Shown here piece after piece: positions 14,806 through 35,449 of a DNA stretch of 46,474 nt. This stretch comes from Gemmatimonadaceae bacterium. GTDB taxonomy: Bacteria > Gemmatimonadota > Gemmatimonadetes > Gemmatimonadales > Gemmatimonadaceae. The stretch spans positions 1 to 46,474 of the forward strand of contig JAICOJ010000018.1 of assembly GCA_025930755.1 (NCBI GenBank). Direction: 5' to 3'. How positions within the stretch are numbered: position 1 is the stretch's first letter; each line of letters opens with the position of its first letter. The notes below the pieces were generated by a model. It worked only from the letters and a program-made list of their open reading frames with translations, did not search any database and was not told where the DNA came from. Made by a program: the position numbers and the translations under genes.

Positions 14806-15003
14806 GCACGTACATCCATCGTCCGTTCCCCTGAACGATGGGTTTTGGGGTTGTTTTTTCGGTGGGGCGGCGCGCGGTTTCGCGGCGCGGTACGTGGCAC
14901 GTGATTTGACTAACGCGAAGCGTCATTGCGGGACCGCCGCGGTTCGTGGCTCGCGAGAGGTCCGTCGTTTTCTTGACGGGCGACACCCCTTGAAGGTTAC
15001 CGT

Positions 15004-15022: not shown

Positions 15023-15076
15023 TGACGAATGAACGAGAGATTCCGCTTCCCGGGTTTGCGCCTTGGTGCAAATCGC

Positions 15077-15084
15077 GCGGTAGC
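15077..15084 (+). promoter_or_regulatory. ops-like element (GCGGTAGC)
   Basis: The octamer equals the core of the enterobacterial ops/JUMPstart element (GGCGGTAGCGTG), the non-template-strand signal that pauses RNA polymerase and recruits RfaH. It sits 48 nt upstream of an RfaH/NusG-like gene at the head of a polysaccharide operon longer than 31 kb, the position where ops occurs in enterobacteria. The flanks are CG before and TTTG after, so the match is confined to the core. An 8-mer can occur by chance about once in a window this size; the placement is the stronger argument. Confidence 0.4.
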
Positions 15085-15131
15085 TTTGTTTCTCGCGGCC
15101 GCTCGTCCCGGCGCACCCTCGGAGAACGCGT

Positions 15132-15548
15132 TTGGATCACGTCGACCGCGATCGGTGCTGGCTACTCCTGTACACGAAGGCGCGCGCGGAAAGCTGGGCC
15201 GAGATCAACCTGCGAAAGCAGGGATTCGCGACGTTGCTGCCGCGGGTGCGGCAGCGCCATGGGTTCGCTCCGCTGTTCCCGCGGTACGTGTTCGTTGGCG
15301 CGCCGGTCGCAGGCGGATTTCGCTCGGTGCGAAGCACGCGGGGCGTACAGTACGTCGTCCATTGCGGCGACCGGCCGGCCCGCGTCCCCCTCGAGATCAT
15401 TGACGAAATTCGCGCGCGGATGGACGACCTCGGCGTCGTGCAGCTCGACGACCAGCCGGGGGTCGATCCCCTGTTCGCGCGGCGCGAGCGCGAGCGCGTT
15501 CGCGCGCTGGTGAAGTTTGCGCAGGCCGGGTTTCGCGTGGTGGCGTAG
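15132..15548 (+). CDS. RfaH/NusG-family transcription antitermination protein lacking a normal KOW domain
   Basis: 138 residues from TTG 15132, with GGAGAA (15121-15126) 5 nt upstream. The N-terminal NGN domain is clear: CWLLLYTKARAESWAEINL, GFATLLPRV, APLFPRYVFVG, STRGVQYVV and VPLEIIDEI match the RNA-polymerase-binding domain of RfaH/LoaP/UpxY-type NusG paralogs. After residue 105 the usual linker and KOW barrel (about 50-60 residues) shrink to some 30. QPG is followed directly by VDPLFARRERERVRALV and a short tail resembling the end of a KOW domain, as if the core were deleted in frame. As first gene of the long operon it probably acts on that operon. Confidence 0.85.
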   Translation: MDHVDRDRCWLLLYTKARAESWAEINLRKQGFATLLPRVRQRHGFAPLFPRYVFVGAPVAGGFRSVRSTRGVQYVVHCGDRPARVPLEIIDEIRARMDDLGVVQLDDQPGVDPLFARRERERVRALVKFAQAGFRVVA

Positions 15549-15593: not shown

Positions 15594-16943
15594 ATGAGCA
15601 TTTACGGTGCGCTGCAGGAGAAGATCGCGCGACGCGAGATCGTCTGCGGCGTTGTGGGGATGGGGTACGTCGGGCTGCCGCTCGCCGTGGAGATGGCGAA
15701 GAGCGGGCTGCGCGTCATCGGCTTCGAGACGTCGCGGCACGTGGTCGAGCGCATCACGGCTGGCCAGAGCCACATCAAGGACGTGGCGGCGGCCGACGTC
15801 GCGGAGATGCGGCGGCGGAAGCTACTCGACGTGACGCTCGACATGGAGCGCCTGGCCGAGTGCGACGTGGTCTCGATCTGCGTACCAACGCCACTCGGGA
15901 AGACGAAGGACCCCGACATGTCCTACATCGTGTCGGCCACGGAGGCGGTGGCGGCCACGCTGCGACCTGGACAGCTCATCGTGCTCGAGTCGACGACCTA
16001 CCCCGGCACGACGCGCGAGGTCATGCTCCCCCGTCTCGAGGGGAGTGGGCTCCACGTCGGCGAGGACTTCTTTCTCGGGTTTTCTCCGGAGCGTGTCGAT
16101 CCCGGCAACGAGCGGTGGCACACGAAGAACACGCCAAAGGTGCTTGGCGGCATCACCGACAAGTGCACGGAGCTCGGGATGGCCGTGTACGAGATCTTCA
16201 TCGAACGCATGGTGCGCGTATCGTCGCCGGAAGCGGCGGAGCTGACGAAGCTGCTCGAGAACACCTTCCGGATGATCAATATCGGCCTCGCGAACGAGAT
16301 GGCGCAGATCTGCGACAAGCTGGGGGTCAACGTGTGGGAGGTGATCGACGCGGCGGGGACGAAACCATTCGGCTTCATGAAGTTCACCCCGGGTCCCGGG
16401 CTGGGTGGGCACTGCATCCCACTCGATCCGCACTACCTCGCGTGGAAGATGCGGACGCTCGCGTACAAGACGCGAATGATCGAGCTCGCGGGGGAGATCA
16501 ATACCGAGATGCCGGCGTTCTGGGTGACGAAGGTACAGGATGCGCTCAACGCCGTGGGCAAGCCTCTGCACGGGTCGCGCGTGCTCGTTCTGGGCGTCGC
16601 GTACAAGAAGGACATCGACGACCTTCGCGAGTCGCCGGCGCTCGAAATCCTCGACCAGCTGAATCGAAAGGGCGCCATCGTGTCGTACCACGATCCTCAC
16701 TGTCCGGAGATCCGGGACGATGGTCACACGCCGTTAGGCGCCATTGGGCACTCGGTGGACTTGACCGACGAGCGCATCCGTGATGCGGATGCGGTGCTCA
16801 TCGTCACCGATCACTCGGCCGTGAGCTATGACCGGGTGTGCGGGTTGGCGCGAATCGTCGTCGATACGCGCAACGCCTGCGCGAGCGCACGCGCCCGGGC
16901 GAAGCGTTCCTGGATGAACGCCTCGGAGCCGGCGACGGTCTGA
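15594..16943 (+). CDS. wbpA: UDP-N-acetylglucosamine/UDP-sugar 6-dehydrogenase (WbpA/WecC-like)
   Basis: 449 residues. N-terminal Rossmann motif GMGYVGLP (22-29). Conserved VPTPLGKTKDPDMSYI and STTYPGTTRE segments, and FSPERVDPGN. The catalytic cysteine is C274 in GPGLGGHCIPLDP. The C-terminal UDP-binding domain includes LGVAYKKDIDDLRESPA. This class oxidises C6 of a UDP-N-acetylhexosamine twice with NAD+ to give a UDP-uronic acid. The KTKDPDMS and RESPA features favour the WbpA/TviB/WecC branch over UDP-glucose dehydrogenase. WbpB- and WbpD-like genes 14 kb downstream support UDP-GlcNAc as substrate. Start ATG 15594 is 45 nt after the antiterminator gene. Confidence 0.88.
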   Translation: MSIYGALQEKIARREIVCGVVGMGYVGLPLAVEMAKSGLRVIGFETSRHVVERITAGQSHIKDVAAADVAEMRRRKLLDVTLDMERLAECDVVSICVPTPLGKTKDPDMSYIVSATEAVAATLRPGQLIVLESTTYPGTTREVMLPRLEGSGLHVGEDFFLGFSPERVDPGNERWHTKNTPKVLGGITDKCTELGMAVYEIFIERMVRVSSPEAAELTKLLENTFRMINIGLANEMAQICDKLGVNVWEVIDAAGTKPFGFMKFTPGPGLGGHCIPLDPHYLAWKMRTLAYKTRMIELAGEINTEMPAFWVTKVQDALNAVGKPLHGSRVLVLGVAYKKDIDDLRESPALEILDQLNRKGAIVSYHDPHCPEIRDDGHTPLGAIGHSVDLTDERIRDADAVLIVTDHSAVSYDRVCGLARIVVDTRNACASARARAKRSWMNASEPATV

Positions 16944-17045: not shown

Positions 17046-17945
17046 ATGGTGACCGGCCTAACGACCGAGCGCCCCGAGACGCGCGCCCCCTCGGCGGGGC
17101 GCGACCACACCCCCGCGCCCGTGAAGACGCTTCCCGTCGTCGAGATCGACGGCGCGGCGCATTGGCGGCGGTGGTGGCGGGATCTGGTCGAGTACCGGGG
17201 CGCGCTGTATAGCCTTGCCTGGCGCAACATCCGCTCGCGATACAAGCAGGCGGTGTTGGGAATGGCGTGGGCCGTGATCCAGCCGACGATTCAGGTAGGC
17301 GTGTTCACGATCTTGTTCGGCGTGCTCGCGGGCGTGCCCTCCGGCGGCGTTCCGTATCCGGTGTTCGCGCTCGCCGGCCTGCTGCCCTGGAACTTCTTCA
17401 ACAAGGTCGTGATCGACGGGTCGCAAGCGCTGGTCACGAATCAGCACATCATCACCAAGCTGTTCTTTCCGCGGATCTATCTGGTGTTCGCGTCGGCGGC
17501 ATCGGCCGTCATCGACGCCGTCGTCACCTTCGTGTTGCTGGCCGGATTGGTCGTGTACTACGACCGGCCGTTCACCGCCGACGCCCTGCTCCTGCTTCCC
17601 GCGTTCGCAGCGCTCGCCATTTTCTCCATCGGGTTCGCGGCCCTCCTCGCGGCGATTAACGCGAGGTGGCGTGATGTGAATCATGCCGTGCCGTTCCTGA
17701 TGCAAATCGGCTTGTTCGTAACGCCGGTCATCTACCCGACCTCCTTGATTCCCGAACGATGGTCGTGGGTGGCCGCGATCAATCCGCTCACGGGGTGGAT
17801 CGGTCTGTTTCGGACCGCTGCCATCGGTACACCCTTGCCCGATACGTCGACGCTGATGGTGTCCATGATCGTGAGCGTCGCGCTCGCGGGGTTTGGCCTG
17901 TGGCACTTCACGCGCGCAGAGCGGACGATCGTGGACGTCGTATGA
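17046..17945 (+). CDS. wzm: polysaccharide ABC-2 type exporter, membrane subunit (Wzm)
   Basis: 299 residues. A soluble N-terminal stretch contains WWRDLVEYRGALYSLAWRNI and RSRYKQAVLGMAWAVIQPT, the hallmark of ABC-2 O-antigen/capsule/teichoic-acid permeases just before the first membrane helix. About six hydrophobic helices follow, with FALAGLLPWNFF, NPLTGWIGLFR and a C-terminal FTRAERTIVDVV that is typical of Wzm. It exports a lipid-linked glycan from cytoplasm to periplasm together with Wzt, encoded immediately downstream with a 4-nt ATGA overlap. Start ATG 17046. A CCTAACG heptamer (17057-17063) sits within its first codons. Confidence 0.93.
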   Translation: MVTGLTTERPETRAPSAGRDHTPAPVKTLPVVEIDGAAHWRRWWRDLVEYRGALYSLAWRNIRSRYKQAVLGMAWAVIQPTIQVGVFTILFGVLAGVPSGGVPYPVFALAGLLPWNFFNKVVIDGSQALVTNQHIITKLFFPRIYLVFASAASAVIDAVVTFVLLAGLVVYYDRPFTADALLLLPAFAALAIFSIGFAALLAAINARWRDVNHAVPFLMQIGLFVTPVIYPTSLIPERWSWVAAINPLTGWIGLFRTAAIGTPLPDTSTLMVSMIVSVALAGFGLWHFTRAERTIVDVV

Positions 17946-19186
17946 GCCGCATCGCGGTACGGGCGGAGCGGTTGGGGAAGCGCTACCGGATTCTGCATCC
18001 GAACGCGCCTCGCTGGCGCGATTATCTGATGCGGCCTCGGGAGGCGGTGCGGCGACCGCGCTCACTGGACGTCTACGCGTTACGCGACGTGTCGTTCGAG
18101 GTGGGCGAAGGGGAAGTGCTGGGCATCATTGGGCGCAATGGAGCCGGAAAAAGCACGCTGCTCAAGATTCTGTCACGGATTACGAGCCCGACCGAAGGAC
18201 GCGCGACCATGGTGGGTCGCGTGGCGAGTCTCCTCGAGGTCGGAACGGGCTTTCACCCCGAGCTCACAGGGCGAGAAAACGTATTCCTGAACGGCATGCT
18301 TCTCGGCATGCCGCGGCGAGAGATCGAGCGCGCCTTCGAGCCCATCGTCGAGTTCGCGGGCGTCGGGCCATATATCGACACGCCGATCAAGCGGTACTCG
18401 AGCGGAATGCAGTTGCGTCTGGCGTTCGCCGTCGCGGCGCATCTCGCCGCGGACACCATGATCGTGGATGAGGTCCTCGCGGTCGGCGACGCCGAATTCC
18501 AGGCAAAGTGCACGAGCGCGATGCGCGATGCTGCCGGTCATGGTCGCACGACGCTGTTCGTCAGCCACAACATGGCCGCGGTCGAGTCGCTGTGCACTCG
18601 AGCGCTCCTCCTCGAAGGTGGCGCCGTCGTCGCGGCGGGACCTGTACGCGAAGTCCTCGGTCGATACTTGCGCGGCGGGCCCGAAGGGGGCCAGGCGGCG
18701 CATTACGAAGCGGCCGATGACGACGTCCCTCGCGATCTTCGAATTACACGCGCTCGCGTGTATGGACCGGCCCACGGCGTACCGATCCAGGGCGAAGACC
18801 TGCACATCGAGTTCGAGCTCGAGGCGCGCAAGCCCTTCCGCCGTCTGCAATGTCTCATATGGATCGCGACCGTCGAGGGGTCACCCGTGTGTGCGTTCTC
18901 GAATGGCGATTATCGGGAGGAGTGGGACGTGACGCCTGGCTCACACCGAGTCACCGTTCGCATCCCGGCGGCCCGATTGCTTCCGAGGACCTATTCGATG
19001 ACGGTACAGGTCGTGCTCGATTGGGGCGCTGAACGGCTCGATGAGCTCGGCGGGGCCGTTCGCTTTCACGTTCATGGGCGGGACGTCCTGGGCACGGGCG
19101 TCGCGCTGCTCGATAATCGAGGCGTCACGTGGATGCCGGCAGAGTACACCATCGAAGCCGTACCGATTCCGCCGCGCGCCTCGTAA
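17942..19186 (+). CDS. wzt: polysaccharide ABC exporter ATPase with C-terminal glycan-binding domain (Wzt)
   Basis: 414 residues from ATG 17942, overlapping wzm by 4 nt; an upstream open frame is a shadow. Walker A GRNGAGKS (64-71), signature YSSGMQLRLAFA (about 152-163), Walker B and D-loop MIVDEVLAVGD, and H-loop VSHN are all present. Beyond about residue 255 a beta-rich domain follows (IQGEDLHIEFELEA, VCAFSNGD, YSMTVQVVLDWG), which matches the Wzt C-terminal domain that recognises the chain-terminating sugar in the E. coli O8/O9a systems. The exporter may therefore read a terminal modification, and the next two genes are methyltransferases. Start and domain content are secure. Confidence 0.93.
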   Translation: MSRIAVRAERLGKRYRILHPNAPRWRDYLMRPREAVRRPRSLDVYALRDVSFEVGEGEVLGIIGRNGAGKSTLLKILSRITSPTEGRATMVGRVASLLEVGTGFHPELTGRENVFLNGMLLGMPRREIERAFEPIVEFAGVGPYIDTPIKRYSSGMQLRLAFAVAAHLAADTMIVDEVLAVGDAEFQAKCTSAMRDAAGHGRTTLFVSHNMAAVESLCTRALLLEGGAVVAAGPVREVLGRYLRGGPEGGQAAHYEAADDDVPRDLRITRARVYGPAHGVPIQGEDLHIEFELEARKPFRRLQCLIWIATVEGSPVCAFSNGDYREEWDVTPGSHRVTVRIPAARLLPRTYSMTVQVVLDWGAERLDELGGAVRFHVHGRDVLGTGVALLDNRGVTWMPAEYTIEAVPIPPRAS

Positions 19187-19219
19187 GGCATTCTGTCACC
19201 TCGGATCCCACCTCTGTCA

Positions 19220-20110
19220 GTGATCTCTTCACTTGCCAGCATCTTGCGCGGAGCGGCGCATGCGCTTCGGAACCCTCGACGCCTCGCCACGCTCGCCGCT
19301 GAGCCGGCTGGGGAACGCGAGGAGGCCTATCAGCGCGAAGCGACGGCGCTTTTCGGAGGCGTACCTCGCTCCGTCCCCTTCGAGGGATTTCTGAACTCCA
19401 GGGGTGATGCGCTCTCGGCGTTCACGTTCCTCGACGACACATCCACCGTGGCCGATCTGCTGCTTCTTCGGGCGCTCGTGAGCCGGTACGGCGCGCGCAC
19501 CATGCTCGAGATCGGAACCTTTCGCGGAGAAAGCGCCCTCGCCGTGGCGAGCGCGGGCGCCAACGTCGTCACCCTGTCGCTTCCGGATGAGGTCATGCTC
19601 GCTCGCAACGCCGAGCCATCCTGGGTAGAGGCCCACCGGACACTGTCGGCGGGCCACCCCAACATTACTCACGCGTTCGGCGACAGCGCGGTGCTCGATA
19701 CGAATCCGTATCGCGAGTGGGCCGACATTCTTTTCATCGACGGCGACCATTCACGTGGGGCGATCGAGGTAGATACGCGCCGGTTCTGGGACACCCGCTC
19801 ACGCCGAGTCGGCGCAGTCGTGTGGCACGATGCATTCTTCTCGCCGCTCGTGCCGCGATGGGAGGTCCTCGCCGGGATTGCCGCGGGGGTGCCGGCCGTC
19901 TACCGGTCACAGATCGTGCACGTTTCGAATACGCTGTGCTTGGCATGGCTGCCGGACGGTGATTCGATGCCGTCCGTCAGTCGCTCGTATGTGCCACGCG
20001 TCGTCTACTCCGTCAACGTCGCACCGGTTCTCGGCTGGACGTCGAGCAAGCAGCCCACTGCCGAGCTCGTCCCGCCGATCCCCCGCGAAGCGCCCGCGAC
20101 CTCGCGGTGA
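19220..20110 (+). CDS. class I SAM methyltransferase (Methyltransf_24-like)
   Basis: 296 residues from GTG 19220. The motif-I region MLEIGTFRGESALAVA is at about 94-109. Acidic residues in ADILFIDGDHSRGAIEVD and VVWHDAF are characteristic of the Methyltransf_24/CmcI-like clade of O-methyltransferases. There is no membrane segment, apart from a mildly hydrophobic N-terminus. Placed directly after wzt, it may methylate the growing or terminal glycan residue. The gap to wzt is 33 nt. The acceptor atom is not predictable. Confidence 0.78.
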   Translation: MISSLASILRGAAHALRNPRRLATLAAEPAGEREEAYQREATALFGGVPRSVPFEGFLNSRGDALSAFTFLDDTSTVADLLLLRALVSRYGARTMLEIGTFRGESALAVASAGANVVTLSLPDEVMLARNAEPSWVEAHRTLSAGHPNITHAFGDSAVLDTNPYREWADILFIDGDHSRGAIEVDTRRFWDTRSRRVGAVVWHDAFFSPLVPRWEVLAGIAAGVPAVYRSQIVHVSNTLCLAWLPDGDSMPSVSRSYVPRVVYSVNVAPVLGWTSSKQPTAELVPPIPREAPATSR

Positions 20111-20129
20111 TGAGTTCACTCCTCGCCGC

Positions 20130-21569
20130 ATGACGCCCGTGAGCGAACCCGGGGAGATGGATTCGCAGGCGCAGACGCTCGCCAGCTTCGACTGGCAATG
20201 GAGCAACCTGCCGGCTGGGGATTTCATGCCGGGCGATCCGTGGTTCGATGCCAATGCCTCGCGGCTTCTCGCGGAGGAATTATGCGGCATCGCTCCGGAG
20301 TGGTTCGATGGGCGTACGGCGCTGGATGCCGGGTGCGGTCAGGGCCGGTGGACGCGAGCGCTCCTCGAGCTCGGAGCGCACGTCACCGCGGTCGACTACA
20401 GCGAAGCGGGGTTGGAACGAACCCGCCAGTTGTGTGCGGACTGGCCTGCACTCGAGACCGAGCGGGTCAACCTGCTGGAGCTGCCTGCGCACCTCGCCGC
20501 ACGCCGCTTCGATCTCGTGTACTCGTTTGGCGTTCTGCACCATACCGGCGACACATATCGCGCCCTCGACAACATCGCGTCGCTCGTCGGTGACCGTGGC
20601 GCGCTCGTGCTGTACCTCTACGGAGCAAGCTCCTGGAGCGAGGAGGAGAAGCAGAAGCACGAGAGGTTGCGGCGGGAGCTGGCACCATTGGACTTCGCGG
20701 AGAAGATCGACGAGTTGCGCCGTCGGTTTCCTCACGAGGACCCGCACCAGCTCTTCGACCTGCTCAGCCCCGTGATCAATGACCGCGTCGAGTTCGAGAC
20801 CGTTGCGGGGCGGCTGCGCGCGGCGGGCTTCGAGCGCATCGACCGCACGATCGAGAGTGGGGAAGTATTCCTGCGCGCGGTCCGGCCCGGGTTTCCCGAC
20901 AGGTCCCTGCGCGAGCCCGTGCTGGCACGCAGCGAGTTCTGGCGCGAGAGCGAACGGCGCTGGCTGGTGCGGAAGGGAAGCGCGTTCGAGCATGCCCTGC
21001 GAACCGCTCTTGCGGGTAGCACCCGACGCCGGGTACCCGACGTCATTCAGACCGTCCTCGGGGCGACGGTTGCGCAGGAGCGCGTGCTCGACGCAAGCCT
21101 GCCGCCCGATCGCATCGTGCCCGAGGAAGTTGGCGGTCCCATGACGACTGTCGAGTACGCGAACCCTCGGGACGAGAAGGCGCTCGTGAACGTGGCCCTC
21201 TGGCTGGGCGCGAGCCTCGGGGCATGTCGCTTTCCGGACGAAGCACTACGAGAGCTCGCGGGGCGAGTGAGTCCCGGGGGGACCCTCATCGTCGAGCTGG
21301 TTGAGGCCCCGTTCCCGGGCGCTCGACGCACGTGGCTCGACAGGGTACGCGATGCCGGCGCGACCGTGCCCGCGAAGCTTGCGCGTCTGCTCGAGCGCCA
21401 TCGTGACTGGTGCACGGGTGAAGGGCTGAGCGCGCTCGGAGGAAGCGTATTGCTGAACCCGCTGGGGACCGCGGCAGCGCAGGATGTGCTTGGGCAATGG
21501 GCCGCGTCCGTCGAGGTTTTGCCGGCGCGTCCCGGCACCACGCTGCTCATTGCGCGGGCTCGACTATGA
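20130..21569 (+). CDS. two-domain SAM methyltransferase, possible glycan-capping enzyme
   Basis: 479 residues from ATG 20130 (ATG 20157 is an alternative; the longer upstream frame is a shadow). The N-terminal half is a complete methyltransferase: LDAGCGQGRWTRALLELGAH (motif I, about 65-), AVDYSEAGLE, and YSFGVLHHTGDTYRAL. The region after about 330 looks like a second, partial Rossmann-like domain (VEYANPRDEKALVNVALWL, VSPGGTLIVELVE) without a glycine-rich motif I, so it may be degenerate or structural. It is about twice the usual length. Next to wzt, it is a good candidate for the enzyme that places a methyl terminator recognised by the exporter; that is inference. Confidence 0.75.
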   Translation: MTPVSEPGEMDSQAQTLASFDWQWSNLPAGDFMPGDPWFDANASRLLAEELCGIAPEWFDGRTALDAGCGQGRWTRALLELGAHVTAVDYSEAGLERTRQLCADWPALETERVNLLELPAHLAARRFDLVYSFGVLHHTGDTYRALDNIASLVGDRGALVLYLYGASSWSEEEKQKHERLRRELAPLDFAEKIDELRRRFPHEDPHQLFDLLSPVINDRVEFETVAGRLRAAGFERIDRTIESGEVFLRAVRPGFPDRSLREPVLARSEFWRESERRWLVRKGSAFEHALRTALAGSTRRRVPDVIQTVLGATVAQERVLDASLPPDRIVPEEVGGPMTTVEYANPRDEKALVNVALWLGASLGACRFPDEALRELAGRVSPGGTLIVELVEAPFPGARRTWLDRVRDAGATVPAKLARLLERHRDWCTGEGLSALGGSVLLNPLGTAAAQDVLGQWAASVEVLPARPGTTLLIARARL

Positions 21570-21606
21570 CGTGGGATCGCCGTGAGAATCCGCCGTCTCC
21601 GAGCTG

Positions 21607-22890
21607 ATGGCAGGTCGATTGATGGTGGTGACCGAATGCTATCCGCATCCGGGTGGCATGCATCGCTGTGCGTTCGCGCATCGGCAGCTGGTCGGCGCGA
21701 AGCAGGCGGGCTGGGATATCCAGGTCAGAGTACCGAATGGGTGGTTCCCGCGGGTCGCGTGGCGCGTGGCTCGTTCGTGGCGACACGTGCAGAAGCTGAG
21801 CATCCCCCGCGACTGGACGCTGGACGGTATTTCGGTCGCCGATCTGGCTTACGAGAATCGCGTTCCTGATCGAGTATTCGGACGACGTCCGCTCCGCGAG
21901 CGAATTGCACGGGCGGCTGTCACGCAGGCGCGGCGTCTCGGAGCCGACATCCTCATGGTGCAATTTGCCCTGCCCTATGGGCCGTCGATCCGCGATGCGG
22001 CACACCGGCTGGCTACGCCGTTCGTCGTGCAGTTGCGAGGCGATGACGTCTGGGTATGGCCGCATCGCAATGACGAGGCGATGCAGTCGTTTCGCGAGAC
22101 AGTACGGAGCGCGCAGCTCGTGACCGGCGTGTGCCGCGCGCTCCTCGATGAGGCGGAACGTCTGGTGGGCGCGCCGCTCCCGAAGGCGGCCGTTGTGCCC
22201 AACGGTATCGACCTTCAACGCTATCGGCCGCCCCTCGACGCCAGAGAACGCGAACGGATACGAGCGCAGTTGGACTTGCGCGACCAGGACCTCGTCATCT
22301 TCTGTGTCGCCGATACCATCGTTCGTAAAGGGTGGCTCGATCTTCTCGATGCGCTCGGTGGGCTGCACGGCCTTTCACGGATCGTGCTGTGCGGTGCGGC
22401 GCAAAGCCAGGTCGCCGAGTTCGACCTCCTGGCGGAGGCGAAGCGGCGGGCGCCGCACGTGGAGACGCGCCTTGAGCGTGGGCTCTCCGCCGAAGAGCTG
22501 GCCGTCCGGTATCGGGCGGCGGATGTATTCTGTCTTCCCTCGCATTGGGAAGGACTCGCGAACGCCCTGCTGGAAGCGATGGCGAGCGGGCTGCCATCGG
22601 TGACCACGGCCGTGTCGGGACATCCCGAGGTCGTCACGGACGGCGTCGACGGATGGCTCGTCGGTGCGCAAAGCGTGTATCAGTTGCGCGACCGTCTCCG
22701 CGAAGTCCTGGCGAACCGCGATCTGCGTCTCGCCGTTGGGGCGGCAGCGCGCGCTCGTGCGGAAGCTGTGGGTGACTCCGCGCGTGCCGGCGCACGACTC
22801 GCCGCCCTGCTCGAGTGCGCGCGCGACGGCCGGGTGTGCCAGGAACTGCTCGCTGCCGACCCGTATGCCCCTCCGGTGGCATCGTGGTAG
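21607..22890 (+). CDS. GT4 family glycosyltransferase
   Basis: 427 residues with the GT-B fold. The N-terminal acceptor domain starts LMVVTECYPHPGGMHRCAF. The donor domain has VVPNGIDLQRY, a KGW segment (VRKGWLDLL) and the GT4 E-x7-E signature in HWEGLANALLEAMASGLP, then VSGHPEVV and GVDGWLVG. It uses an activated sugar (NDP-sugar), retaining mechanism expected for the family. ATG 21607 follows the methyltransferase by 37 nt, and its stop overlaps the GTG of the next gene by 7 nt. Specificity is unknown. Confidence 0.88.
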   Translation: MAGRLMVVTECYPHPGGMHRCAFAHRQLVGAKQAGWDIQVRVPNGWFPRVAWRVARSWRHVQKLSIPRDWTLDGISVADLAYENRVPDRVFGRRPLRERIARAAVTQARRLGADILMVQFALPYGPSIRDAAHRLATPFVVQLRGDDVWVWPHRNDEAMQSFRETVRSAQLVTGVCRALLDEAERLVGAPLPKAAVVPNGIDLQRYRPPLDARERERIRAQLDLRDQDLVIFCVADTIVRKGWLDLLDALGGLHGLSRIVLCGAAQSQVAEFDLLAEAKRRAPHVETRLERGLSAEELAVRYRAADVFCLPSHWEGLANALLEAMASGLPSVTTAVSGHPEVVTDGVDGWLVGAQSVYQLRDRLREVLANRDLRLAVGAAARARAEAVGDSARAGARLAALLECARDGRVCQELLAADPYAPPVASW

Positions 22891-23873
22891 CCACGCGAAC
22901 CATCGTCGTCACCGGTGTCGCGGGATTCATTGGGTCGTCGCTCGCCGAACGTTTACTCGAGGGGGGGGACCGTGTCATCGGCGTGGACAACTTCGATCCG
23001 TTCTACGCCCGGGCCGCCAAAGAGCTGAACTTGCGACGGGCGCTCAGTCACGAACATTTCACCTTTCTCGAAAGCGATCTTCGGGAGCCGGGGCTTGTAG
23101 AGCGGGTGAGGGCAGCAGCAGGGGCGGGCGCGGACATCGTCGTCCATCTAGCCGCCAAGGCGGGGGTGCGACCCTCCATTGCCGCTCCACTCGCCTATGT
23201 CGAAGCAAACGTCACGGCCACCGCGGCGACGCTCGAGCTGGCGCGGAAGCTGAACATCGACCGATTCGTCTTTGGGTCCTCGTCGTCGGTGTACGGCAAC
23301 GCCGCCTCGCCACCGTTCAAGGAGTCCGAAGTCAACCTGGTACCGATATCGCCCTATGCGGCATCGAAGCGTGCGGCGGAGATTCTCTGCGATAACTGGG
23401 CGCGCGTGTTCGGGATGCGATGCGTTTCGTTGCGTTTCTTCACGGTCGTCGGTGAGCGGCAGCGGCCGGACCTCGCTCTGCACGCCTTCACGCGCGCCAT
23501 CGTCGATGGCCGAACGATTCAGGTCTTTGGCGACGGCAGCATGCGTCGCGACTTTACCTACGTCGGTGACATTTTGAACGGGCTGGTCAGTTCCCTGGAT
23601 TTCGTCGGCACGATGCCGCGAGGAACGCACGAGATCATCAACCTCGGGGGTCACGCCAGCGCGACGGTGCTGGAGTTGATCCACGCCATCGAGCGTGCCC
23701 TCTCACGCGAGGCGCGCCTCGAGTTCGTGCCGCGACCGCCGGGCGATGTCGAATTGACCTTCGCCGACATCAGCAAGGCGCAGCGCTTGCTTGGATTCGC
23801 GCCACAGGTCTCGCTGACGGAAGCGGCGCAGCGATTCGCCAACTGGTATCTGCAGGGAGGAGTGACACCGTAA
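22884..23873 (+). CDS. extended SDR NAD-dependent epimerase, UDP-glucuronate 4-epimerase-like
   Basis: 329 residues from GTG 22884, overlapping the previous stop. The NAD motif is GVAGFIGSS, with the serine cluster FGSSSSVYG and catalytic Y158-x3-K162 in SPYAASKRAAE. GVDNFDPFYARAAKELN and AAKAGVRPSI are typical of UDP-glucuronate 4-epimerases (CapI/GlcAE), which give UDP-galacturonate; UDP-glucose 4-epimerase is less likely. The stop TAA directly abuts the ATG of an asparagine-synthase gene. If the substrate assignment holds, this provides a second uronic acid alongside the WbpA product. Confidence 0.82.
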   Translation: MVATRTIVVTGVAGFIGSSLAERLLEGGDRVIGVDNFDPFYARAAKELNLRRALSHEHFTFLESDLREPGLVERVRAAAGAGADIVVHLAAKAGVRPSIAAPLAYVEANVTATAATLELARKLNIDRFVFGSSSSVYGNAASPPFKESEVNLVPISPYAASKRAAEILCDNWARVFGMRCVSLRFFTVVGERQRPDLALHAFTRAIVDGRTIQVFGDGSMRRDFTYVGDILNGLVSSLDFVGTMPRGTHEIINLGGHASATVLELIHAIERALSREARLEFVPRPPGDVELTFADISKAQRLLGFAPQVSLTEAAQRFANWYLQGGVTP

Positions 23874-25781
23874 ATGTGCGGAATCGCAGGACGCTACGCA
23901 CGGCACCCGATGTCGGCACCGGCAGTCGACGCTCTGTCGGCGCGCATCCAGTCCGCGCTACACTCGCGCGGACCCGATGGCGGCGCGGCGCATTACGATG
24001 AGGATGTCCTGCTGATCCATCGGCGGCTCTCGATCATCGATTTGAGTGCCGCGGGGGCGCAACCACTCTGGAACGAAACGCGTGACGTATGTGTGCTCGT
24101 CAACGGCGAGATCTACAACTACCAGGATCTTCGGCATTCTCTTCACGCGCGAGGACACCGCTTCCGGAGCCAGTCGGATTCTGAAGTGTTGGTGCACCTG
24201 TACGAAGACGGGGGGATCGACGGATGCTGTCGCGCGATCCATGGCATGTTCGCGTTTGCGCTGTGGGATGCTCGTACCCGTGATCTCTACCTGGTCCGCG
24301 ACCGGGTGGGGATCAAGCCGCTCGTCTTCGCCGAGCACGAGGGTGGATTCACCTTCGCATCGAACCTGCACGGCCTCCTCGCCGATGAATGCGTCCCGGC
24401 CGCCCTGAATCCCGAAGCCCTGCTGAGCGTCCTTCGATGGGGATTTGTCCCGACGCCGTGGTCCGCGATAGCGGCGGCACGCCATCTCGTTCCGGGAACG
24501 TGGGTGCGGGTCCGCGGCGGCCGAGTGGTCGAGGAGCGCCGATGGTGGACTGACGAGCCCCCCGCCGCGCTCGTGGGAGACGCGGAGGTCCGCGACGCGA
24601 TTCGCCGAGCGGTGAAATCACACCTCGTGGCGGATGTGCCGGTGGCGACGCTGCTTTCCGGTGGTGTCGATTCTGGCCTTGTCAGTCTCCTCGCGGCGTC
24701 CGAAAGCGGCGAGGGTGAGCTCCGCGGGTTCACGGTGAGTCACCGGGGGCACGCGGAGGACGAGTGGGCGGATGCGCACGCGATGGCCCATCATGCGGGA
24801 ATACAGTTACGAGAAGTCCCGCTCGGCGGCGGTGGGCTGACCGAGGAAGTCTTCGAGTCCGTCGTCGGCGCGATGGATGAGCCGCTCGCGACCTCGAGCA
24901 TGGTCGGGCTGTGGGAGCTGTTCCGCGCCATCGCTCCCGACCGTCGTGTCGTGCTCAGCGGCGACGGCGGCGACGAGCTGTTTGGCGGCTACGATTGGCA
25001 CCTGTCGATGCCCGGCCGACCGCGGTGGGCCGACGGTCCCCTTTTTCGAGTCGCTGCTCCTCTGCTGGCGCGGGGCCGTGCCCTCCCGGGACGGTTCGGC
25101 TCCGTCGGCCGCCTCGCCGCACTCACTCGCCGACACCCGGCGTCGATTTATCTGGATCGCCTGCGCCTCCTCGATGTCACCGAGCTCGAGGCGGTTGGAC
25201 TCGCACCTAACGACGCGGAGCCGCTCGAGGCTGTTGCCCGCACCGCGTGGGACCGCTTCGCGCCACGGGGTCTCCTCGAGCAGATGCTCGCCGTCGACCG
25301 CGCGACGGCCCTGGTCGACGAGATGCTCGCCAAGGTCGATGCCGCGTCCATGAGTCACTCGGTGGAGGCGCGTGTGCCCTTCCTGGACGACGGTGTCCTC
25401 GCGGCCGCGACCGCGCTCCCATCCGATCGGAAGCGGCAGGGCCCTGTTGGAAAGGTGTGCCTTCGCGAATGGTTGGCCGGCCTGGGCGCAGCGAGCGCGT
25501 CGACACGCCGCAAGACGGGATTCAACTCCCCGGTGGCCGCGTGGCTGGACGGCCCCGCCTCGGGACGCCTCCGGGGCCGCATCGATGACGCGGTGGCCCT
25601 CCTGGGGCTGCGTGGTGCCCCTGCGTCCGCACGGGGCCGCTTCGCCCTGGCGGTGATTGGCGAGTGGGTGAGCCGCGCGCAGGCTGCACGACGTGTCACC
25701 CCACCGCGGCCTAACGACGACTCGTGGCGTGACGGGCCGGGTGCCCGTCGCGCGTTCGTTCCCTCGACGGGCGAGGCATGA
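23874..25781 (+). CDS. asnB: asparagine synthase-type glutamine amidotransferase, copy 1
   Basis: 635 residues. N-terminal class II glutaminase: catalytic Cys2 (MCGIAG), HRRLSIIDLS, NGEIYNY and the D-S-E-V element are intact. The synthetase domain has the PP-loop SGGVDS (262-267) and SGDGGDELFGGYD, and FLDDGVLAAA near the end. It should hydrolyse glutamine and use ATP to convert a carboxylate to an amide. In glycan loci such paralogs (WbpS, WbmE type) are thought to amidate uronic acids. The stop overlaps the next SDR gene (ATGA). The C-terminus beyond about 600 is a poorly conserved basic tail. Two CCTAACG heptamers lie inside. Confidence 0.9.
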   Translation: MCGIAGRYARHPMSAPAVDALSARIQSALHSRGPDGGAAHYDEDVLLIHRRLSIIDLSAAGAQPLWNETRDVCVLVNGEIYNYQDLRHSLHARGHRFRSQSDSEVLVHLYEDGGIDGCCRAIHGMFAFALWDARTRDLYLVRDRVGIKPLVFAEHEGGFTFASNLHGLLADECVPAALNPEALLSVLRWGFVPTPWSAIAAARHLVPGTWVRVRGGRVVEERRWWTDEPPAALVGDAEVRDAIRRAVKSHLVADVPVATLLSGGVDSGLVSLLAASESGEGELRGFTVSHRGHAEDEWADAHAMAHHAGIQLREVPLGGGGLTEEVFESVVGAMDEPLATSSMVGLWELFRAIAPDRRVVLSGDGGDELFGGYDWHLSMPGRPRWADGPLFRVAAPLLARGRALPGRFGSVGRLAALTRRHPASIYLDRLRLLDVTELEAVGLAPNDAEPLEAVARTAWDRFAPRGLLEQMLAVDRATALVDEMLAKVDAASMSHSVEARVPFLDDGVLAAATALPSDRKRQGPVGKVCLREWLAGLGAASASTRRKTGFNSPVAAWLDGPASGRLRGRIDDAVALLGLRGAPASARGRFALAVIGEWVSRAQAARRVTPPRPNDDSWRDGPGARRAFVPSTGEA

Positions 25782-26770
25782 TTCGCAACCTCATCACCGG
25801 TGGCGCCGGGTTCATCGGGAGCCACCTGGCGGAACACCTTCTCGACAATGGCGAGGAGGTGCTCGTGTGGGACAATCTCTCGACCGGGCGCATGTCCAAC
25901 CTCCAACGCTGTGTGGGCCGACCGGGCTTTCGATACATCATCAGTGACTTCACGGAAGACCCATCCTTCCCGCGGATGGCGGAGCAAGTGGATGTCATCT
26001 TTCACCTTGCTGCGGCGGTCGGCGTTCAGCTCATCGTAAACGATCCCGTGCGCACGCTCGAAACCAACATCCTCGGAACCGAGGTCGCGTTGCGAGCCGC
26101 AGCCAAGTACGGCAAGCGCATTTTCGTGGCGTCGACGAGCGAAGTATACGGAAAGGGAACGCGCATTCCGTTCAGCGAGGACGATGATGTGCTGTACGGA
26201 CCCACCACCAAGCGGCGGTGGAATTACGCCATCTCGAAGGCGGTCGACGAATTCCTGCTGCTGGCCTACGCGGAATCACACGGGCTGCCTGGGGTAGTCG
26301 GCCGGCTCTTCAACACCGTCGGGCCGCGGCAGGTGCCGCACTACGGCATGGTGATCCCGCGGTTCATCGAGCAGGCACGGACGGGAGCCGAAATGACCGT
26401 GTACGGCGACGGGACACAGCGGCGATGCTTTGGCCATGTGCGGGACGTGGTGCCGGCAATCCACAAGCTGGTGCATTGCGATGACGCCATCGGCCATGTG
26501 GTGAACCTCGGGTCCAATCAGGAGATCACGATACTGGAGCTCGCCATCAAGATCCGCGACCGCCTGCAGTCGGATTCGGAAATTCGCTTCGTTCCCTACG
26601 AGATCGCGTATCGCCCTGGCTTCGAAGACATGGAGCGGCGCGTGCCGGACCTCACGAAGGCTGAACGGCTCATCGCCTACCGACCTTCCCGGACCCTGGA
26701 TATCGCCCTCGATGACATTCTGGCGGACGGCGCCGCGGCGCCCGGCGCGGTGATGGGAAACTCGCGCTGA
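25778..26770 (+). CDS. extended SDR NAD-dependent epimerase/dehydratase
   Basis: 330 residues. NAD motif GGAGFIGSH (8-16), ASTSEVYGKG, catalytic Y150-x3-K154 in WNYAISK, RLFNTVGPRQVPHYGMVIPR and YGDGTQRRCFGHVRD. The overall pattern is closest to the UDP-glucuronate decarboxylase / GDP-mannose 4,6-dehydratase-like group. The exact reaction (4-epimerisation, decarboxylation to xylose or dehydration) cannot be settled by eye. ATG 25778 overlaps the previous stop by 4 nt, and the stop TGA shares one base with the ATG of the second asparagine-synthase gene. It is therefore wedged in translational coupling between two amidotransferases. Confidence 0.8.
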   Translation: MIRNLITGGAGFIGSHLAEHLLDNGEEVLVWDNLSTGRMSNLQRCVGRPGFRYIISDFTEDPSFPRMAEQVDVIFHLAAAVGVQLIVNDPVRTLETNILGTEVALRAAAKYGKRIFVASTSEVYGKGTRIPFSEDDDVLYGPTTKRRWNYAISKAVDEFLLLAYAESHGLPGVVGRLFNTVGPRQVPHYGMVIPRFIEQARTGAEMTVYGDGTQRRCFGHVRDVVPAIHKLVHCDDAIGHVVNLGSNQEITILELAIKIRDRLQSDSEIRFVPYEIAYRPGFEDMERRVPDLTKAERLIAYRPSRTLDIALDDILADGAAAPGAVMGNSR

Positions 26771-28689
26771 TGTGCGGAATCCTCGGGGCCGTGTACCTCG
26801 GCCGCGATCTGAGCCTCGACCACATCGAGCGCGGCCGGGATGCGCTCCGCCACCGTGGGCCTAACGGTGCTGGCCTGTGGCGCGACGACCTCGTCGACAC
26901 GGACGGGGACGTGGTGCTTGCCCATCGGCGACTCAGCATCCTCGACCTGTCGGAGCGCGCCGACCAGCCCTTGCTTCTGGGAGCCGCCGGGGGTGCCCGG
27001 CCCGCGGTCATGCGCGAGGCCGGGGGCGCTGAGTTCGCTCTCCTGTTCAACGGCGAGATCTACAACTACGTCGAGCTCCGCGAGGAGCTGCGTGCGCGGG
27101 GCCACGACTTTCGCTCCACGGGGGATACCGAAGTCCTCCTGCGTGCCTTCGCTGAGTGGGGTCCGTCCTGCGTCGACCGGCTGAACGGGATGTTCGCGTT
27201 CGCGGTCTGGGACCGTGCACGGCAAGCGCTGTTCTGCGCCCGTGATCGCTTCGGCGAAAAGCCGTTCTACTACACCCTCGACCCCACCGCCCGTCGCTTC
27301 GCCTTCGCGTCAGAGGCGAAAGGACTCATCGCTGCGGGCCTCCAAACCGCCGACCTCGATCCGCGAGCCGTGTATCGGTACTTCCGCTTCGGTGACCAGG
27401 CGGGAGCGGAAGCCACGATCTGGCGCGGGATCCGACGGCTCCCTCCTGGCCATACCCTGACGGTCAAGGTGGAACGCGAGAGACTCGACCTCCAGATCCG
27501 TCGCTATTGGAATATTGACGTCGAGCCGCAGCTCGAGATATCGGAGGCGGACGCGACGGATGAATTCGCCGAGCTATTCGCGGACAGCGTTCGCATTCGT
27601 CTTCGCTCGGACGTTCCGATCGGAACGAGCCTTTCGGGAGGGCTCGACTCGACGAGTGTTCTGTGCGAGGTGAAGCGGTTGGGCGCGGCGGGAGGGCAGC
27701 GGGCGTTTACGGCGCGGATGGATGATCCGCGCCTCGACGAAGGGAAATATGTCGAGCTCGTGCTGAAGCAGACCGGTGTGCCAGGCGTGGATGTCCGCCC
27801 GACGGCTCGTCGGCTGCTCGATGAGTTCGACCGCCTGTACTTTCATCAGGAGGAGCCGTTCCCTTCGACGAGCTTGTTCGCGTCGTATCTCGTGCACGAG
27901 GCAGCGAGCGCCAGCGGCGTCGTCGTCATGCTGGACGGGCAGGGGGCCGACGAATATCTCGCGGGATATGCGCATTACCCCGCCGTCGTGCTCGCCGATC
28001 TCGCGCGCCGGGCGTCCGTTGGCCGATGGTGGCGAGAGCGGCGCGCACTCCGGGAACGCACGGGCACGGATCCCGTGCCACCGCGGGCATTCGTGCACTA
28101 CCTGCTGCACGGGATCCACGGGGACGCTACTCTGGCCGTTGACTCCGACTTCGCGGCGCCCTTCATCCGCGGCGACGTCCACGAGGCGTTTCGTGCCGAG
28201 CAGCCGCGCACCATTCCTCGTGGGCGCGACGCTCTCAAGACGCGGCTCTATGCGGATCTCATGTTGGGCCACTTGCAGGAGCTGTTGCGATATACCGATC
28301 GCAACGCGATGTCGGTCTCCGTCGAGGTTCGGCTGCCGTTTCTCGACCATCGACTGGTCGAGCTGTGCATGCGCCTTCCGACGCCATATCTTTTCCGCGA
28401 CGGGACCAGCAAACGGATTCTTCGACGCGCGATGCGCGGCACCGTTCCGAGCGCCATTCTCGACCGCACGGACAAGATCGGGTTCGCTACGCCGTGGACC
28501 GCCTGGTGGGGCGAGGCTTTGCAGGGCGAGCTCGCGGCGCGCCTCCGAGATGCCGAGGCGGAGCTGTCCGACCTCGTGCGACCGGGTACGGTACCTCCCG
28601 GGAGTAGCGCGGCCCTTGGACTCATGTCGCTTGCGGCGAGCCGTCGGCAGCTTCGCGCACTTCAGGGTACCCGCGCCGCCGCGGCGTGA
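26770..28689 (+). CDS. asnB: asparagine synthase-type glutamine amidotransferase, copy 2
   Basis: 639 residues. Catalytic Cys2 (MCGILG), HRGPNGAG, HRRLSILDLS, NGEIYNYVELR and GDTEVLL make a complete glutaminase. PP-loop SGGLDS (289-294), GQGADEYLAGY, and TDRNAMSVSVEVRLPFLDH with KIGFATP complete the synthetase. The insert between the glutaminase His/Arg motif and NGEIYNY is longer than in the other copies (LLLGAAGGARPAVMREAGG). The start shares a base with the preceding SDR stop, and the stop overlaps the next gene as GTGA. Likely role: ATP- and glutamine-dependent amidation of a uronate or nucleotide-uronate. Confidence 0.9.
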   Translation: MCGILGAVYLGRDLSLDHIERGRDALRHRGPNGAGLWRDDLVDTDGDVVLAHRRLSILDLSERADQPLLLGAAGGARPAVMREAGGAEFALLFNGEIYNYVELREELRARGHDFRSTGDTEVLLRAFAEWGPSCVDRLNGMFAFAVWDRARQALFCARDRFGEKPFYYTLDPTARRFAFASEAKGLIAAGLQTADLDPRAVYRYFRFGDQAGAEATIWRGIRRLPPGHTLTVKVERERLDLQIRRYWNIDVEPQLEISEADATDEFAELFADSVRIRLRSDVPIGTSLSGGLDSTSVLCEVKRLGAAGGQRAFTARMDDPRLDEGKYVELVLKQTGVPGVDVRPTARRLLDEFDRLYFHQEEPFPSTSLFASYLVHEAASASGVVVMLDGQGADEYLAGYAHYPAVVLADLARRASVGRWWRERRALRERTGTDPVPPRAFVHYLLHGIHGDATLAVDSDFAAPFIRGDVHEAFRAEQPRTIPRGRDALKTRLYADLMLGHLQELLRYTDRNAMSVSVEVRLPFLDHRLVELCMRLPTPYLFRDGTSKRILRRAMRGTVPSAILDRTDKIGFATPWTAWWGEALQGELAARLRDAEAELSDLVRPGTVPPGSSAALGLMSLAASRRQLRALQGTRAAAA

Positions 28690-30047
28690 CGACGCCAACA
28701 CTCCGCTACGAACAACACGAGCCGCTCGCGCACGCCACCGCGTCGGGTCGGCCGTACGCGCTCGTCCATCTCGTCGCTCAGGAGATGCACAAGGGTTTGA
28801 TCGAGACCCAGGTGCTGGATCACATGGAATCTCAGGCGATGCAACGGGGCCCGCATCCCCCCCGGCGTGTTGCGGTCGCCTTCCTCGAACCGGTTCGTGT
28901 CGCGCTTCGACGGACGACACGTCATCGCCTTCAGAGCCTGCGCCGTCGTGCGCCTCACGTCCACGTGACGGTGCTGCCCTACGTGAGCCGCGTCGGACTA
29001 CGTGCCAATGCGCGCGTCCTCTCGATTCCCCTTCGCATGTCTCATCGCGGCCGACCGACCGTGTTTCATTGTCGGTCGGAAATCGCTGTGCGGTGGGCGG
29101 CCGCCTTCCGGGAGTGGATCCCATCTGCGGCGATCGTCGCTGATTTTCGCGGCGTGTGGCCGGAGGAGTACCTTCATGCACAAGGGATCGACGCGCTCGA
29201 CCAGGCGAATGAGCCAACGCGGTTGGCCTACGAGCGAGCGGTGTCCGATGTGAAGTACGCTCTGAGCGTGGCGGACGGTATTCTCACCGTCTCGACCGGC
29301 CTTCGCGACTGGCTCGGACGGTACGGGTCACGAGGCGAATTGACCACCGTCGTTCCGACGTGCGTATCAGCGCTCACGTTTGCCGAGACGGATCGACGCG
29401 CGGTTCGCGATCGCCTCGGCGTCTCCGGGAAGGTGGTGCTGGCGTACGCGGGGACCGTAACGAGGTATCAGCATCTGCGCGAGGGGTTTGCGGCGTTCGC
29501 GCGCATCGCGCTGGAGCAGCTCCGGGACGACCGCATCCACGTGTTGTGCGTCACGCCGGATGTGGACGCCATGCGGCGAGTCCTAACCGAGGTCGGCGTG
29601 CCGGCGCAAGCGGCAACAGTCGTGAGCGTTCCCCAGGAGGGCGTCGCCGCGTATCTCTCGGCGGCGGACGCCGGTTTTCTCCTGCGGGCCGACAGCGTAG
29701 TGAATCGTGTGAGCGTTCCGGTCAAGCTGGGTGAGTATCTCGCCGCTGGCGTGCCGGTCGTTATCTCGCGGGTTGACGGCTGGCTGCATGAAACGATTGC
29801 GACGGCTTCGGCCGGCTGGAGCATCGATTGGTTCGGCCTCGGCGATGCGGAGCGACGTCGTGTCGTCGCTGACGTTCTGCGCGATCTGACTACCGGCCCC
29901 TCCCGCCGTGAGTCCGCGCTGGCGCTCTGCCGAACCCACTTTCTCTGGTCGGCCCACACACGGCTCGTTAGGGGCGCCTACCAGGCGGCGCTGACTCGCG
30001 CAGAGGCGCGGTCGCACACCGCCGTCGAGGGGGTACCCACGGCGTGA
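28686..30047 (+). CDS. GT-B glycosyltransferase, GT4-like
   Basis: 453 residues from GTG 28686 (GTGA overlap). There is an N-terminal Rossmann-like half, then SVADGILTVSTGLRDWLGRY, a donor-domain start VVLAYAGTVTRYQHL and VPQEGVAAYLSAADAGFLLR, PVKLGEYLAAGVPVVIS. This is the arrangement seen in GT4 relatives such as WbuB, with a glutamate in LGEYLAAGVP in place of the classical E-x7-E pair. The protein may act on lipid-linked intermediates at the inner membrane. The stop overlaps the WbpB-like gene. Sugar specificity is unknown. Confidence 0.78.
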   Translation: MTTPTLRYEQHEPLAHATASGRPYALVHLVAQEMHKGLIETQVLDHMESQAMQRGPHPPRRVAVAFLEPVRVALRRTTRHRLQSLRRRAPHVHVTVLPYVSRVGLRANARVLSIPLRMSHRGRPTVFHCRSEIAVRWAAAFREWIPSAAIVADFRGVWPEEYLHAQGIDALDQANEPTRLAYERAVSDVKYALSVADGILTVSTGLRDWLGRYGSRGELTTVVPTCVSALTFAETDRRAVRDRLGVSGKVVLAYAGTVTRYQHLREGFAAFARIALEQLRDDRIHVLCVTPDVDAMRRVLTEVGVPAQAATVVSVPQEGVAAYLSAADAGFLLRADSVVNRVSVPVKLGEYLAAGVPVVISRVDGWLHETIATASAGWSIDWFGLGDAERRRVVADVLRDLTTGPSRRESALALCRTHFLWSAHTRLVRGAYQAALTRAEARSHTAVEGVPTA

Positions 30048-31114
30048 AGCCGCCGTTTCGTGTCGTGCTCGTCGGGTGCGGCCGCATCAGCGAACGGCAT
30101 TTCGACGCCATCGCCGACCGCCCCGAGTTCCGGCTGGTGGGGGTGGCGGACGAGGTGCCCGACCGCGCGCGCAGCGCCGGTGAGCGGCTCGGGATACCGG
30201 CGTTCACGAGCTACGCGGCGATGCTCGCCGAGACCGAGGCGGAGGTCGCGGTGGTCTGTACGCCGAGCGGACTGCACCCGAAGCATGGCATCATGGCGGC
30301 GGAGCGCGGTCTGCACGTGGTCGTGGAGAAGCCGATGGCCACGCGCCTCGAGGAAGCGGACGCGCTCGTTCGCGCGTGCGATGAGCACGGCGTGCATTTG
30401 TTCGTCGTGAAACAGAACCGCCTCAATCCAGGGATCCAGCTCCTCAAGCGCGCGCTCGATCGCGGACGGTTTGGGCGGGTCTTCCTGGCCAACACGACGG
30501 TCCGGTGGAATCGCCCGCAGAGCTACTATGCGGCAGCGCCGTGGCGAGGTACGTGGGAGTTCGATGGCGGCGCGTTCATGAACCAGGCGAGCCACTATGT
30601 CGACATGATTCAGTGGCTCGTGGGGCCGGTCGAGTCGGTGAGCGCGAAGACCGCAACGTTGGCGCGACAGATCGAGAGCGAAGACACGGGTGTCGCGCTG
30701 CTACGGTTTCGCAGTGGCGCCCTTGGTGTCATCGAAGTCACGATGCTCACCTACCCGCGAAATCTGGAAGGTTCGATCACCGTCATCGGTGAGAAAGGTA
30801 CGGTGAAGGTCGGCGGGACTGCCCTCAATCGCATTGAGCACTGGGAGTTCGCGGAGTATGACGACGACGATCGTGAGGCGGAGGCCCTGAAGGCCGCACC
30901 CAATCCGCTCTCGGTATATGGATCGGGCCACCGACCGTACTACGACAATGTCGTTCGCGTGCTTCTCGGCGAGGAATCTCCGGGCACCGATGGACGCGAG
31001 GGTCGCAAATCCCTCGAGCTGCTTCTGGGAATCTACGAGGCGGCACGGACGGGGAGGGAGGTAGCGCTTCCGCTGCGAGGATTTTCCGGGCGCGAGGCCG
31101 CGTCGCGTGAGTGA
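30044..31114 (+). CDS. wbpB: Gfo/Idh/MocA oxidoreductase, WbpB/WlbA-like
   Basis: 356 residues from GTG 30044 (GTGA overlap). Rossmann motif [11 protein letters not shown], and the family's catalytic EKP at 95-97 (VVEKPMA). The segment [13 protein letters not shown] and then [29 protein letters not shown] closely follow the WbpB/WlbA pattern. WbpB oxidises the C3 hydroxyl of UDP-GlcNAc-uronic acid, making the 3-keto intermediate for 3-amination. The WbpA-like dehydrogenase upstream and the WbpD-like acetyltransferase immediately downstream (8-nt overlap) fit the same pathway. The aminotransferase step (WbpE) is not encoded in the window. Confidence 0.88.
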
Positions 31115-31715
31115 GTCGCGGGAAATGCCGGGTGGCTGGCACGTTCACGAGTCGAGTTACGTGGATGAGGGAGCGACCATCGGACGCGGCACGCGTATAT
31201 GGCACTTCTGCCATGTCAATCGCGGCGCGGTGATCGGGGAGCGCTGCAGCCTGGGCCAGAACGTCGTCGTCATGCCCGGCACGTCACTGGGCAACAACGT
31301 GAAGGTGCAGAACAACGTGAGCATCTACGAGGGCGTCGAATGTGAAGATGATGTCTTCCTGGGCCCGTCAATGGTGTTCACGAACGTGAACAATCCGCGC
31401 AGCCACGTATCGCGGAAAGGGGCGTACCGGAAGACGCTCGTTCGGCGCGGCGCGTCCGTAGGCGCGAATGCGACCATCCTGTGTGGACACGAGCTCGGCG
31501 AGTACGCCTTCGTGGCCGCCGGCGCTGTCGTGACCAGCAACGTACCGGCCTACGCGCTGGTGGCCGGGGTGCCGGCGCGCATCATCGGTTGGATGTGTCA
31601 GTGTGGGGAACGTCTCGCGCTCGGGGCCACCCTCGCCCCTGACGTGGCGATTCGCTGCACGGAATGCGGCACGGCGTACCAGGTCCTGAATGGCCATCTC
31701 GCACGACGCGACTGA
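31107..31715 (+). CDS. wbpD: left-handed beta-helix N-acetyltransferase, WbpD/WlbB-like
   Basis: 202 residues from GTG 31107; ATG 31125 is an alternative. Repeated hexapeptides form a left-handed beta-helix ([46 protein letters not shown]), with [14 protein letters not shown] and the [10 protein letters not shown] end typical of WbpD/WlbB, which N-acetylates the 3-amino group of UDP-GlcNAc3NA uronic acid using acetyl-CoA. A C-terminal extension carries a CQC and a CTEC pair ([17 protein letters not shown]), which may bind zinc. The overlap with wbpB indicates co-translation. Together these support synthesis of a 2,3-diacetamido-uronic acid. Confidence 0.88.
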
Positions 31716-35422: not shown

Positions 35423-35449
35423 TTTCACCCCTGACGTGGTGCAACTGAC

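Follow-up and report, generated by a model that had tools for sequence, protein, structure and literature searches.

RfaH is a textbook fold-switching protein that reads the ops element through residues K10, H20, R23, Q24, and R73, with E48 bridging to the C-terminal domain (CTD), and within ops the TG at positions 11 and 12 is pause-inducing. RfaH recruitment depends on bases 3 to 8 of ops, the recognition core, with direct readout of G4, G5, and T6 (PMC5995543). The N-terminal domain of Escherichia coli RfaH alone (RfaH-N) antiterminates in vitro, is poorly soluble, and acts largely independently of ops; it is the CTD that makes RfaH soluble and ops dependent and connects it with translation (PMC2871177). 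A protein reduced to the NGN domain would therefore be expected to antiterminate, not to recruit ribosomes via S10, and to need some substitute for masking by the CTD. The NusG/Spt5 superfamily has been described with at least one KOW after the NGN, i.e., at least two domains (PMC6391919), and a literature search drawn mainly from open-access papers found no description of a KOW-less RfaH or NGN protein.

The window analyzed here is the whole 46,474-nucleotide stretch of contig JAICOJ010000018.1 from a Gemmatimonadaceae bacterium (GenBank assembly GCA_025930755.1). It carries a short RfaH-like gene (Table 1) with a GGAG at 15121-15124, 7 nt ahead of its start codon. The Pfam NusG/NGN model PF02357 matches residues 9 to 94 (2e-10; 41.5 bits against a cutoff of 22.2), and the NCBIfam RfaH model matches residues 10 to 96 only, the NGN part, at 62.8 bits against an equivalog cutoff of 144.5. 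About 40 residues follow the NGN, some 25 of them conserved, and Pfam matched no KOW in the protein even at E ≤ 1. An RfaH-type NGN without KOW, as proposed in a sequence-only reading of this DNA, is thus borne out, Pfam and NCBIfam matching the NGN part alone. The same reading called the NGN complete, but alignment with RfaH chains places its β-hairpin about 8 residues short of that in E. coli RfaH, so that the domain is not entirely complete. A sequencing error hiding a full KOW, a prospect raised there, or a frameshift is ruled out because only 45 nt separate the stop codon from the next ATG (15594) and orthologs in other genomes are equally long. The Pfam match, selection, the orthologs, and GC by codon position, which agrees with a gene in the 15132-15548 frame, rule out a chance open reading frame. 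The only other NGN in the genome belongs to one 181-aa protein with a KOW-type C-terminus, which fits the housekeeping NusG.

Table 1. Features of the short RfaH locus, in window coordinates.
Feature	Position	Strand	Basis and proposed role
Leader hairpin GGTTTGCGC-CTTG-GTGCAAATC, 9 bp	15053..15074	+	Covariation; proposed pause hairpin
ops core GCGGTAGC (E. coli ops positions 2-9)	15077..15084	+	Exactly 2 nt past the hairpin
KOW-less RfaH-like gene	15132..15548	+	138 aa, TTG start; open reading frame, Pfam and NCBIfam matches, orthologs
NGN domain, residues 9-97	15156..15422	+	Pfam PF02357; alignment with RfaH chains
Conserved C-terminal tail, residues 112-136	15465..15539	+	Proposed vestige of the second KOW half; helix predicted at residues 119-132
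UDP-glucose/GDP-mannose dehydrogenase family gene	15594..16943	+	Pfam; 45 nt after the stop codon; proposed to lead the structural genes of the operon under control
Polysaccharide cluster	17046..37381	+	Pfam; proposed distal targets

Full-length matches gave 13 complete proteins (this one included), spread over six genera within a single family of Gemmatimonadota. Each stops 92 to 94 residues past PLFPRY and matches NGN only, with no KOW at E ≤ 1, and the 13 share the tail DPLFAKRERERVRALVKFAQAGFRV, with the pattern D-x-LFAKRERERVRALVKFAQAGFRV. KOW-bearing relatives align over the NGN only, and their C-terminal part is longer, reaching 110 to 146 residues past PLFPRY in most. The short proteins form one clade in a quick NGN tree built on few columns (SH-aLRT 99), and among 395 genomes sampled across the phylum they are confined to this family; against the PDB, the family profile found RfaH chains only at E ≤ 0.001. 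One ortholog (L010) has a diverged C-terminus, and one genome (G015; C27) encodes two paralogs (L005 and L016), each by its own cluster and with its own hairpin-ops element. A 179-aa open reading frame in L021/L037 was not counted as a KOW-bearing ortholog, since it arises from a break after the NGN. Judged by sequence comparison, the KOW-less form is the fixed, constrained architecture of a clade and not a recent deletion; with length and tail common to 13 proteins of six genera, the idea of a deletion special to this gene falls.

The ratio pN/pS was 0.39 for the tail (residues 112 to 136) and 0.35 for helix residues 119 to 134, whereas the NGN had 0.48 and the linker 0.69; by this sequence-based measure purifying selection is stronger on the tail than on the NGN. 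The best ungapped placement of the tail on the KOW profile was over its last half (β3/β4; KRRVEVLLSLLGRETVV over RERVRALVKFAQAGFRV), a weak alignment that was equalled by 0.25% of 2,000 column shuffles (p = 0.0025) and that lends moderate support to the earlier remark that the tail resembles the end of a KOW. AlphaFold2 run with 10 sequences gave the tail helix at low confidence; with 13 sequences (pTM 0.80), a helix was predicted at residues 119 to 132 with a pLDDT of ~85, packed on the NGN. Of the refuting case raised in the sequence-only reading, close homologs all of this length with a predicted small KOW-like fold, the length is shared by the clade, but the tail is predicted as one helix against the NGN and not as such a fold. 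In Foldseek, the top five PDB matches of the model were RfaH with the CTD docked on the N-terminal domain (5ond, 8pfg, 8pib) and plasmid PrfaH. TMq was 0.64 to 0.73 over 138 to 145 columns for docked-CTD RfaH and PrfaH, against 0.58 to 0.59 over 100 to 115 columns for fully recruited RfaH; the modeled gain for docked-CTD RfaH, ~10 to 20 residues, would be about the size of the tail helix. AlphaFold2 may here be recalling autoinhibited RfaH from its training. The hydrophobic moment of the tail was no higher than that of shuffled sequence, and the tail is not clearly amphipathic; R120 and R122 are invariant within it, and R124 is often conserved.

The residues through which RfaH contacts ops and RNA polymerase (RNAP) give a mixed picture. 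RfaH K10 corresponds to an invariant K16, H20 to an invariant N26, and Q24 to a near-invariant Q30 (kept in 12/13), and the equivalent of R23 varies, being mostly K or R; the RNAP-contact residues Y54 and F56 of RfaH are Y52 and F54 here. The equivalents of R73 (R/F/Y/L) and of E48 are unconserved, so any lid would be held differently and its details must depart from those in E. coli.

The strongest evidence for what the short RfaH does is its hairpin-ops leader, which was absent from the sequence-only reading. The ops core GCGGTAGC occurs in 9/9 available upstream regions of orthologs outside genus g33, an inverted repeat precedes each ops core, and stem and core are 2 nt apart in 12/12. The G171 leader (ortholog L034) has GGCGGTAGCGTGC and is the only one with the exact TG at ops positions 11 and 12; most leaders carry T12 G13 instead, and in some it is missing. 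With only four leaders as input, a covariance model (R1) recovered the leaders belonging to L005, L009, L016, and L036; in g33 it located the element ~100 nt downstream of the short-RfaH gene, ahead of a gene for a WecA-like transferase. Wherever flanking sequence was available, the element adjoins the ortholog, on its upstream side or, in g33, just past it; the ortholog in G047, at a contig end, is without a checked leader. In the model-guided structural alignment, 95% of stem cells were paired, compared with 20 to 55% in slid controls, and three stem pairs carried double changes, a number that the shuffle control reached in 27/500.

The genome of the window has a single strong hairpin-ops site (1.9e-10; the next is at 0.046). 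A second model (R2) found 13 sites below 1e-6 in 179 genomes of the family, 12 of them adjoining a short-RfaH gene; these 12 are the loci on which R2 was trained, where matches are expected by construction, so independent support comes from the four-leader R1. The 13th match (L149 in G053) was taken as chance: no NGN gene was found beside it, and it lies on the opposite strand of a gene that by eye resembles a dipeptidase gene. An Rfam scan gave no match and a sigma-70 promoter scan found nothing; the hairpin is followed by no U-run, and its loop is variable in sequence, with no conserved UNCG. Upstream of the leader, a terminator-like stem with a T-run (14829-14850) is no more than shuffles would give.

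Similar arrangements were seen on viral contigs, where GCGGTAGC lies ~20 nt ahead of the first NGN Trp codon in five NGN genes (L118, L075, L076, L066, and L131) and downstream of seven others (L084, L088, L069, L070, L104, L057, and L052), with GGCGGTAGCGTGC in L069 and L070. Having ops next to an rfaH-like gene may be a general phage feature. Four viral-contig NGN proteins (L063, L065, L099, and L118) apparently lack KOW and have other C-termini, sometimes very basic, possibly through independent losses.

The polysaccharide cluster downstream of the dehydrogenase family gene encodes an ABC-2 permease and ATPase, methyltransferases, glycosyltransferases, NDP-sugar epimerases, three asparagine synthases, and a hexapeptide transferase. 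The three asparagine synthase genes (glutamine-hydrolysing type) fall within ~14 kb (23874-25781, 26770-28689, and 35450-37381). The same dehydrogenase family neighbor lies downstream of the ortholog in G003. Polysaccharide genes follow the other orthologs too, and their kind differs from genome to genome (e.g., UDP-sugar dehydrogenase, asparagine synthase, cytidylyltransferase with NeuB, ABC-2 permease, MBOAT, or a WecA-like transferase with UDP-GlcNAc 2-epimerase). The element thus tracks the regulator and not one downstream gene family, which fits a target site of the regulator.

We therefore propose that the short protein is, with good probability, a single-domain antitermination factor of the RfaH type that serves its own operon, acting through the NGN only, with the tail helix as a lid and with no ribosome docking. 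As RNAP leaves the leader, the 9-bp RNA hairpin would form and GCGGTAGC would be exposed on the nontemplate strand, with the polymerase slowed or paused. The NGN could then engage both the polymerase clamp and the ops core and remain with RNAP along the polysaccharide operon downstream, where it would suppress pausing and termination. The remaining half of the KOW would be a short helix lying against the NGN, much as the CTD helices do in autoinhibited RfaH, and could serve as a minimal lid that masks the RNAP-binding face, keeps the protein soluble, and makes its action ops dependent; as a substitute for CTD masking, the conserved helix is the obvious candidate. With the KOW-motif half of the second domain gone, no β-barrel to receive ribosomal protein S10 (or Rho) would form, and refolding of the C-terminus into an S10-binding barrel would not be expected. 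The earlier suggestion that the protein could bind RNAP and act on elongation and might not couple translation is supported, by analogy with isolated E. coli RfaH-N (PMC2871177).

What the tail does could be read otherwise. It might be a nucleic acid or protein contact instead of a lid, its conserved arginines (R120, R122, and often R124) gripping, within the paused complex, either upstream DNA or the hairpin of the nascent RNA. The invariance of R120 and R122, the covarying hairpin at a fixed 2 nt from ops, and the lack of clear amphipathicity would all suit such a contact, and there is precedent in LoaP, where a leader RNA hairpin is bound by both domains (PMC12691694). We nonetheless consider it unlikely, as AlphaFold2 packs the predicted helix on the NGN with good confidence and the hairpin is kept mainly as a helix, its sequence differing between genera. 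That the protein is a decaying RfaH remnant, either a functionless NGN stub or a mere competitor of NusG, is highly improbable. The loss of a conserved family domain and the diverged C-terminus of L010 are what decay might produce, but purifying selection, on the tail as elsewhere, largely refutes it, and length is conserved throughout the clade, leader element and cluster association are retained, and G015 holds two copies, each with its own element.

The hairpin and GCGGTAGC might also be some other regulatory element (a riboswitch, an attenuator, or a site bound by an unrelated factor) that is carried along with the clusters and is not an RfaH target. The absence of the pause TG from some leaders would fit this, but we regard it as improbable: GCGGTAGC is exactly ops positions 2 to 9, spanning the recognition core at bases 3 to 8 (PMC5995543), one ortholog has GGCGGTAGCGTGC, Rfam gave no match, no U-run follows the hairpin, and the element adjoins the short-RfaH gene on either side and not one type of downstream gene. 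Returning to the one-domain antiterminator, we suggest more tentatively, at a little under even chances, an evolutionary account: an RfaH lineage outside the Proteobacteria lost half of its KOW and had the other half frozen in the helical autoinhibitory state as a one-state lid, giving an ops-gated antiterminator without ribosome docking whose leader stands before its own gene in most genera (positive feedback) and after it in one. A conserved KOW-less RfaH would separate antitermination from ribosome recruitment in nature, show the fate of a metamorphic domain once one of its folds is impossible, and extend the ops code, together with a covarying hairpin, to Gemmatimonadota. Whether RfaH-type factors need KOW to activate surface-polysaccharide operons is now a directly testable question.

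Set against the superfamily as described, all 13 members have the NGN, and where a KOW would be expected the fold model has one helix. The housekeeping NusG shares the NGN fold but is here a separate 181-aa gene with a KOW-type C-terminus. Like UpxY of Bacteroides, the short RfaH is an NGN paralog encoded in the polysaccharide operon that it presumably serves (PMC7593976), although its match to the NCBIfam UpxY model is weak (21.4 bits against a cutoff of 100), below what that subfamily requires. As with LoaP of Bacillus velezensis, a long biosynthetic cluster has a leader RNA hairpin with which a NusG paralog is associated (PMC12691694); LoaP, in contrast, has two domains and binds a UNCG hairpin that causes no discernible pause, whereas the short RfaH has no KOW and an ops core after its hairpin. 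With E. coli RfaH it shares the NGN type, the ops core in the leader, the association with polysaccharide clusters, and, in the predicted model, a helix that sits on the NGN in the way the docked CTD of RfaH does. It differs in lacking KOW, and so the switch from helical hairpin to β-barrel, in its shorter β-hairpin (by ~8 residues), unconserved E48 and R73, and score below the equivalog cutoff, and in that its gene sits inside the proposed target cluster with ops adjoining. The E. coli JUMPstart 39-mer matched E. coli chromosomes in 597 records at ≥99% identity; it also folds a stem beside ops, not better than shuffles. The laboratory construct RfaH-N is likewise an NGN-only RfaH and transcriptionally active in vitro (PMC2871177). 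Unlike that poorly soluble and largely ops-independent construct, the natural protein has retained a conserved helix, which may confer those very properties, solubility and ops dependence.
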